Made by a program: the position numbers and the translations under genes. Shown here piece by piece: positions 10,656 through 21,947 of a stretch of 64,000 bases of DNA; the first letter of the stretch is position 1; each line of letters starts with the position of its first letter. Source of the stretch: Candidatus Bathyarchaeia archaeon (GTDB taxonomy: Archaea; Thermoproteota; Bathyarchaeia; Bathyarchaeales; Bathycorpusculaceae); contig JAVZEV010000002.1 of assembly GCA_038873195.1 (NCBI GenBank), positions 62,001-126,000 on the forward strand, read 5' to 3'. The notes under the pieces are model-generated. The model made no database searches. It was given only the letters and a program-made list of their open reading frames with translations, and was not told where the DNA came from.

Positions 10656-10700
10656 AGGTAATTCTCCTCCAAATTAACAGATTAAATTATAAAAGGGGCA

Positions 10701-10813
10701 GCCAGCTTTCCCGGGTTCGCGTGGCCTAAGACCACACTACAGCCGAGAACGGAGCGCGGTTTAACTTCCGAGTTCGGAATGGGATCGGGTGGGTCCCGCG
10801 CCCTATGACCGGC
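10701..10813 (-). rRNA. rrf: 5S ribosomal RNA
   Basis: The minus strand carries the conserved 5S core: CCGAACTCGGAAGTTAAAC in loop B/helix III, then the helix IV/V region. The 5' GCCGGT and 3' GCTGGC ends pair as helix I with one G-U. Length about 113-115 nt. A T-rich stretch (CCCCTTTTATAATTT) directly follows the 3' end and probably terminates transcription. No 16S or 23S sequence is nearby, so it is a solitary 5S gene between protein genes, as in many archaea. End positions are accurate to a few bases. Confidence 0.93.
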
Positions 10814-10867
10814 AAACCCCAGAATACACGTTAAGCTTATGCTCATTAACTTTTCGCTTTTGACAGG

Positions 10868-16832: not shown

Positions 16833-17005
16833 GGGGCTGTAGTCTAGGAAGGTATGACGACGGGCTCCAGAATGCAACAAACGGGTTTGCGGACCGCCCG
16901 AAGCGGAATGAAGAAGTTCTGGAGCGGTCATAGAGAAACCCGTAGGAACAGCCAAGCGCTGTCTCCGGGGAAAGGTCGTCGGTTCAAATCCGGCCAGCCC
17001 CACCA
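16833..17005 (+). tRNA. trnW: tRNA-Trp (CCA) with two introns and encoded CCA
   Basis: Acceptor GGGGCTG (16833-16839) pairs with CAGCCCC (16995-17001), discriminator A and genomic CCA (17003-17005). D arm 16842-16858. Anticodon stem ACGGG (16860-16864) pairs with CCCGT (16939-16943); loop CTCCAGA gives anticodon CCA. T arm GTCGG-TTCAAAT-CCGGC at 16978-16994. Intron 1 (67 nt, 16871-16937) is at the canonical 37/38 site with a bulge-helix-bulge: 3' bulge AAA, central helix CTC/GAG plus one mismatch, 5' bulge AGA, outer ATG/CAT. Intron 2 (29 nt, about 16944-16972) lies between positions 43 and 44, with CCC/GGG helix, bulges GTA and AAA, and an inner hairpin. Removing both gives a normal 74-nt tRNA. 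A TATATC box at about 16789-16796 may be the promoter. Confidence 0.93.
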
Positions 17006-21268: not shown

Positions 21269-21283
21269 AACGCAGCGGAAAAA

Positions 21284-21358
21284 TGGGGCTGCCCGGATTT
21301 GAACCGGGGTCTAGAGAGCCCAAGTCTCCAAGCCTAGACCAAGCTAGCCGACAGCCCC
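21284..21358 (-). tRNA. trnP: tRNA-Pro (UGG)
   Basis: On the minus strand GGGGCTG pairs with CAGCCCC, discriminator A. The anticodon stem GGAGA/TCTCT (one G-U) closes loop CTTGGGC, giving anticodon TGG for proline. T arm CCCGG-TTCAAAT-CCGGG. No intron and no encoded CCA. An A/T-rich box (TTTTAAATTTATCC on the minus strand, about 21392-21405) lies some 40 bases upstream. Confidence 0.95.
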
Positions 21359-21441
21359 ATGGATAGTTTGGTGGGTAAAATAGAATTCTAGAGGATAAAT
21401 TTAAAACATTCTCTCTAAAAGAAACGTGAGTAGAGGTTTTG

Positions 21442-21873: not shown

Positions 21874-21947
21874 AGCCTCGGCCGGGCTTTGATCCCGGGA
21901 CCTACGGTTTACGAGACCGTCGCTCTACCGAGCTGAGCTACCGAGGC
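21874..21947 (-). tRNA. trnT: tRNA-Thr (CGU)
   Basis: On the minus strand GCCTCGG pairs with CCGAGGC, discriminator T. D arm AGCTCAGCTCGGTAGAGC. Anticodon stem ACGGT/ACCGT closes CTCGTAA, anticodon CGT for threonine codon ACG. The T stem is CCGGG/CCCGG with loop ATCAAAG. No intron and no encoded CCA. CTTAAAAATAAC on the minus strand (about 21972-21983) is a good box A, about 30 bases upstream. Confidence 0.95.

Follow-up and report, generated by a model that had tools for sequence, protein, structure and literature searches.

The closest described system is the intron of tRNA-Trp in Haloferax volcanii, which guides two methylations, at positions 34 and 39 of the tRNA (PMC7994747, PMC7714728); PMC2584109 describes it as 103 nt long, with both C/D and C'/D' boxes. 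Most descriptions of such guides so far concern euryarchaea and introns that have two full box pairs. We analyzed a window of 64,000 nucleotides (the whole stretch of DNA under study) from a Bathyarchaeia genome (G000; 1.63 Mb, 2 contigs). It contains a tRNA-Trp gene whose first intron is probably a conserved, cis-encoded ribose-methylation guide of the box C/D type (for Cm34 and Cm39), reduced to one kink-turn.

Rfam found the tRNA, a tRNA-Trp(CCA), at positions 16833 to 17002 with 39.8 bits (cut-off, 29) and placed inserts in the anticodon loop and in the variable loop, which correspond to two introns (Table 1). An ARAGORN run did not report this two-intron gene, which could escape automatic annotation. 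The boundaries of intron 1, read by eye, show the bulge-helix-bulge motif of archaeal tRNA introns, with two 3-nt bulges (A36 G37↓A, and AA↓A at 16936-16938; arrows mark splice sites), an outer helix ACGGG/CCCGT, and a central helix of 4 positions with one C.A mismatch, in which C32-C35 pair with AGAG at 16932-16935. The inner pairs AUG/CAU are replaced by AAG/CUU in one relative (L117). Intron 2, an addition to the original prediction, forms a short hairpin whose splicing motif is relaxed (CCC/GGG, GU↓A and AA↓A). Most of the relatives read have this intron, and it is missing from others, e.g., L006, L015, L016, L120, and L155-L158. At permissive thresholds, Rfam returned beyond the tRNA family just two chance matches, far under their cut-offs. 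The window also holds a 5S rRNA gene (10697-10816), a tRNA-Pro(TGG) gene (21283-21359), and a tRNA-Thr(CGT) gene (21874-21947), all on the minus strand.

Table 1. Features of the tRNA-Trp(CCA) locus, in window coordinates
Feature	Position	Strand	Remarks
tRNA-Trp(CCA) gene, two introns	16833-17005	+	Terminal CCA encoded at 17003-17005
Exon 1	16833-16870	+	Acceptor, D arm, anticodon 5' strand ACGGG 16860-16864, anticodon CCA 16867-16869, G37 16870
Intron 1, 67 nt	16871-16937	+	Canonical position 37/38; putative guide carrier
Guide 1 ACGGGTTT	16881-16888	+	Pairs with AAACCCGT 16936-16943 across the intron 1/exon 2 junction; C39 (16939) at N+5
D' box CGGA	16890-16893	+	In Bathyarchaeia: CTGA 44/98, CGGA 40/98, CCGA 5, CAGA 4
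Kink-turn hairpin	16894-16907	+	Stem CCGC 16894-16897/GCGG 16903-16906, loop CCGAA
C' box ATGAAGA	16908-16914	+	Consensus RTGATGA
12-nt spacer AGTTCTGGAGCG with guide 2 TTCTGGAGC (16917-16925)	16915-16926	+	Guide 2 pairs with GCTCCAGAA 16864-16872 across the exon 1/intron 1 junction
GTCA at expected D box (CTGA) position	16927-16930	+	CTGA in no relative
Exon 2 (A38-U43)	16938-16943	+	Contains C39 at 16939
Intron 2, 29-nt hairpin	16944-16972	+	Position 43/44
Exon 3	16973-17002	+	AGGTC (44-48), T arm, 3' acceptor strand, discriminator A73

According to the original prediction, intron 1 carries two elements antisense to the exons of its own tRNA, ordered as in the euryarchaeal tRNA-Trp intron, with position 39 designated by the N+5 rule and a C'-like motif between the guides. 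Every element that it named is in place, and the antisense elements are real. Among 20,000 dinucleotide-preserving shuffles of intron 1, a 9-nt complement to the 5' junction was matched in 0.14% and an 8-nt complement to the 3' junction in 0.4%, and the two never occurred together. The longest complement to exon 1 averaged 6.70 nt in intron 1 versus 4.31 nt in shuffles. Intron 2 of the same genes served as an internal control and showed no antisense above chance (3.54 nt versus 3.53 nt shuffled). The N+5 assignment and the C'-like motif held as well, as described below.

The comparison of the intron across relatives, which had been proposed as a check, relied on tRNA-Trp genes from the same order, class, and phylum, picked by an exon-only pattern; the intron was not used in the selection. 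The parsed set comprises 98 distinct Bathyarchaeia introns, mostly 45 to 73 nt long, and roughly half of the Bathyarchaeia genomes gave no match to the exon pattern. The D'/C' boxes and the guides are conserved. All 98 introns have the same order of guide 1 (or its former place), D' box, hairpin, 3-nt bulge, and C' box, and many relatives have a perfect CTGA at the position of the CGGA of the window. The motif first described as C'-like is the C' box of a well-formed D'/C' kink-turn in 98/98 Bathyarchaeia, mostly as ATGACGA (50 introns) or ATGAAGA (38), with ATGATGA in 3 and other variants in the remainder. The hairpin stem has 2 to 6 pairs and the bulge reads GAT, AAT, or AGT (AAT at 16907-16909 in the window, 16907 being its first nucleotide); bulge, tandem GA, and stem are found in every one of the 98, as in the C'/D' kink-turn of archaeal box C/D sRNAs. 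Stem, 3-nt bulge, and tandem G.A, followed by the D'2/C'5 and D'1/C'6 pairs, are the geometry of a predicted kink-turn. D'1/C'6 is C-G in 92/98 Bathyarchaeia and can also be A-T (L222) or T-A (L223) elsewhere in the Thermoproteota; D'2/C'5 takes the forms T.C, G.A, G-C, T-A, A.A, C.T, C-G, and A-T, among others. The kink-turn combined with the GGAG of guide 2 occurs in 94/98 Bathyarchaeia introns and in 1/9,800 shuffled ones.

Guide 1 is also paired in the minimum-energy fold. Its nucleotide G16885, the partner of C39, is the fifth upstream of D', which places the target at N+5 exactly as a guide upstream of D' does in archaeal box C/D guide sRNAs, and the selection of C39 requires no new rule. 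The same spacing was found in 99/117 introns, and the guide 1 pairing is lost in 16. Where target bases change, whether in the exon or at the end of the intron, guide 1 changes with them: ATACCCAT faces ATGGGTAT in L015, L016, and L022-L026, and ATACCCGT faces ACGGGTAT in L120. Over 39 distinct guide/target pairs, guides scored 204/312 with their own partners, compared with a mean of 180 and a maximum of 198 when partners were swapped.

Guide 2 lies on the other side of the kink-turn, and its GGAG starts exactly 6 nt after C' in 97/98 Bathyarchaeia. G16922 faces C34 (16867) and is the fifth nucleotide from the end of the 12-nt spacer that follows C', a geometry that is retained with no D box behind the guide. 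Since the anticodon loop CTCCAG is invariant, co-variation of guide 2 is visible only in the first bases of the intron. There it is readily seen: CTCCAG is followed by CTC in L164-L166 (pair CTCCAGCTC/GAGCTGGAG), by ACT in L223 (pair CTCCAGACT/AGTCTGGAG), by AGC in L181 (guide GCTCTGGAG), and by TTC in L217 (guide GAACTGGAG). Across 55 distinct pairs, pairing at the first two positions of the intron was seen in 107/110 cases, compared with a shuffled mean of 68.9 and a maximum of 85. Partner shuffles as good as the own partners numbered 0/10,000 for guide 1 and 0/10,000 for guide 2, counts that are not probabilities because the shuffles ignore relatedness, and the co-variation nevertheless reappears in families that are not related. 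Either guide can be lost without the other, as members of family f27 (L172-L175, L178-L180) retained the kink-turn and guide 2 without guide 1, whereas L227 and L228, from another family, retained guide 1 with no clear guide 2 or kink-turn. From these two loci and the 16/117 introns without guide 1, it follows that the two guides are not always both required.

The original prediction had described the D box as degenerate and a good C box as missing. This is correct for the present copy; it is no peculiarity of this locus, and the boxes are absent throughout the Bathyarchaeia and the other Thermoproteota sampled. Downstream of guide 2, CTGA is in place in 0/117 introns and NTGA in 7/117; upstream of guide 1, the best matches to a C box (RTGATGA) in the 117 introns are no better than in shuffled sequence. 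Moreover, the introns of L168-L177 stop 3 to 4 nt past the guide 2 spacer, which leaves no room for a terminal C/D motif. What is missing across these groups, as far as sequence can tell, is the terminal C/D kink-turn (RUGAUGA plus CUGA) of archaeal box C/D sRNAs as a whole and not only a good copy of it at this locus. The possibility that the intron, once circularized, restores a C box at its junction was considered and discarded, as the resulting ATAGAGA differs too much from RUGAUGA and relatives of families f25 and f27 do not conserve it. The suggestion that the intron is a diverged guide is supported by the comparison, as both guides and the D'/C' core are conserved and co-vary across relatives.

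Outside the Bathyarchaeia, the kink-turn and guide 2 were found in about 18 of 40 tRNA-Trp genes read from other Thermoproteota; others of the 40 have no intron (e.g., L201, L202, L215, L216, L236) or an intron without these elements (e.g., L203-L208, L212, L220, L237). Nearly all of the 22 introns read in family f41 have both, and Sulfolobaceae introns share the layout. Exact matches to an intron pattern added ten loci from families f2, f3, and f4 (L294-L303) in which the guide is retained and extra introns split the 5' half of the gene, and two further matches (L306, L307) were rejected as chance on read-out. In f2 and f4, tRNA-Trp genes (L297-L300, also L294, L296, L301-L303) apparently have up to four introns, located in the D loop, in the anticodon stem, at 37/38, and at 43/44, with the guide intact in the 37/38 intron; these extra introns are the reason why the exon-based searches missed the genes. 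Genomes G059 and G106 each gave one match to the intron pattern that resembles a tRNA-Trp intron.

Two genomes of family f41, G311 and G321, have an identical tRNA-Trp intron. Over 123 residues, L7Ae from G321 and chain L7A1 of PDB entry 8hku are identical. We take this entry to be the Sulfolobus acidocaldarius ribosome and identify G311 and G321 here as this species or a sister species. The S. acidocaldarius-like loci L255/L256 have the kink-turn and guide 2 in an intron that ends 3 nt after the spacer. The tRNA-Trp of S. acidocaldarius contains Cm34, as determined by mass spectrometry (PMC7668247), and the snoRNA database predictions cited in that study list tRNA-Gly and tRNA-Gln and not tRNA-Trp. 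An intron with a single kink-turn and no D box thus coexists with the mark predicted from it, a coexistence that need not be causal, and the intron is a candidate guide for this Cm34. For Cm39 in S. acidocaldarius, we found no report in the literature searched.

L7Ae, Nop5, and fibrillarin are all encoded in G000, where the Nop5 gene (C1:438146-438823) adjoins that of fibrillarin (C1:438918-439598) and L7Ae-family genes are present. From the sequence features, we infer the following steps. Within the pre-tRNA, the kink-turn would form from D' box, hairpin, and C' box; L7Ae would bind it and recruit Nop5 and fibrillarin to it. Lying immediately 5' of D', guide 1 would pair with the 3' junction and present C39 at N+5; guide 2, immediately 3' of C', would pair with the 5' junction and the anticodon and present C34, eight nucleotides after C', so that the two guides would invade the anticodon stem-loop from both sides. 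Fibrillarin would then methylate C34, and probably also C39, ahead of splicing. The guide 2 duplex (C32-G37) and the central helix of the splicing motif share bases, which implies that they are successive states and that methylation would come before splicing; PMC2584109 concludes on this order for pre-tRNA-Trp. Selecting C34 without a D box would need a new rule: distance could be measured from C', two half-guides could form dimers, or GTNA could still be recognized residually. We propose tentatively, as a possibility somewhat short of an even chance, that a single-kink-turn guide of the box C/D type works in cells and that C34 is picked without a D box, by its 8-nt distance from C' or by half-guide pairing. 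If true, the N+5 rule from the D box would have an alternative that is widely used across the Thermoproteota. Against the reading of intron 1 as a guide stand the missing D box that would define N+5 for guide 2, the introns that have lost one of the guides, and two published observations: established archaeal C/D RNPs have two kink-turn or kink-loop motifs (PMC3608112), and Haloferax is viable without the intron (PMC4090602).

For a Pyrococcus pre-tRNA, activity reportedly remained substantial in the absence of L7Ae when Nop5-fibrillarin levels were high, which was credited to easy formation of the duplexes in cis; such ease would explain how a cis-acting guide could tolerate the loss of one kink-turn. 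The absence of the terminal motif and of a D box behind guide 2 could also mean that the intron is a folding or timing device, in which L7Ae and the pairing hold the pre-tRNA unspliceable until it refolds and is spliced, with no methylation involved. Both duplexes would indeed block the bulge-helix-bulge, and the loss of guide 1 in 16/117 introns indicates that one target is dispensable. We nevertheless consider this reading unlikely, as the placement of C39 exactly at N+5 and the fixed distance from C' to guide 2 are more precise than a clamp would need, S. acidocaldarius has Cm34 (PMC7668247), and the homologous Haloferax intron guides both methylations (PMC7994747, PMC7714728).

Less likely still, the intron may be a full box C/D RNA in which both ends work as in Haloferax, the terminal kink-turn being degenerate (with GTCA or GTNA as its D box) or using exon nucleotides. 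The box counts given above and the introns that end 3 to 4 nt (L168-L177) or 3 nt (L255/L256) after the spacer argue against this, and a sheared G.A pair would require a G that GTCA does not have; the 12-nt spacer is of the usual length, the tetramer behind it often starts with GT, and a few relatives have GTGA. That C34 is methylated by a trans-acting C/D sRNA or a stand-alone enzyme, the intron being a relic, would have a precedent in the Pyrococcus trans sRNAs that serve other tRNAs (PMC7994747). We judge it very improbable: the pattern GATGA-N4-14-CTGGAG-NNNTGA gave no candidate in G000, G082, or G311, the three candidates in G321 have no counterpart in the sister genome G311 and all lack the 12-nt spacing that a guide has on the C' side, and a relic would not go on co-varying. 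Finally, guide 1 resembles the 5' strand of the anticodon stem and both pair with one stretch of exon 2, yet the notion that the antisense elements arose by chance, or as a side product of the motif for splicing, is already refuted by the shuffle results and the co-variation with partners across families, and the splicing pairing uses other nucleotides (16932-16935).

The reading of intron 1 as a methylation guide with one kink-turn would suggest a reason for an archaeal tRNA gene to retain an intron. No account of this reduced form turned up in the literature searched, although PMC2584109 mentions 29 archaea and may already count some of the present introns as C/D guides. A conserved and co-varying version with one kink-turn in another archaeal phylum challenges the need for both motifs and for the D box. 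The Nanoarchaeum equitans tRNA-Met intron is a comparable case of a tRNA intron proposed as a C/D guide, there as a C/D-like RNA (PMC3491384); that case concerns another tRNA, and the exon targets described here are those of tRNA-Trp. Archaeal box C/D guide sRNAs have in common with intron 1 the D' and C' boxes, the N+5 spacing from D', the 12-nt spacer on the C' side, and the L7Ae, Nop5, and fibrillarin set; unlike them, intron 1 has no terminal C/D kink-turn or stem, lies inside a tRNA gene, and links D' to C' by a paired hairpin. The closest likeness is to the H. volcanii intron and Pyrococcus sR50, with which it shares the tRNA, the 37/38 position, and, as the original prediction had noted for euryarchaeal tRNA-Trp, the targets 34 and 39 in the same order (PMC2584109, PMC7994747, PMC4090602), and also the duplexes over both exon-intron junctions, the rivalry with the splicing motif, and the protein set encoded in the genome. 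A scan of viral contigs for euryarchaeal tRNA-Trp introns returned none and a second scan returned chance matches in non-tRNA sequence, so the comparison draws on published descriptions. Compared with those introns as published, which contain both C/D and C'/D' motifs, the present ones are mostly 45 to 73 nt long in Bathyarchaeia and have D'/C' only, with no CTGA D box and no C box. As reconstructed here, intron 1 acts in the manner of the known guide in the tRNA-Trp intron yet does not have the terminal C/D motif, one of the features that define box C/D RNAs.
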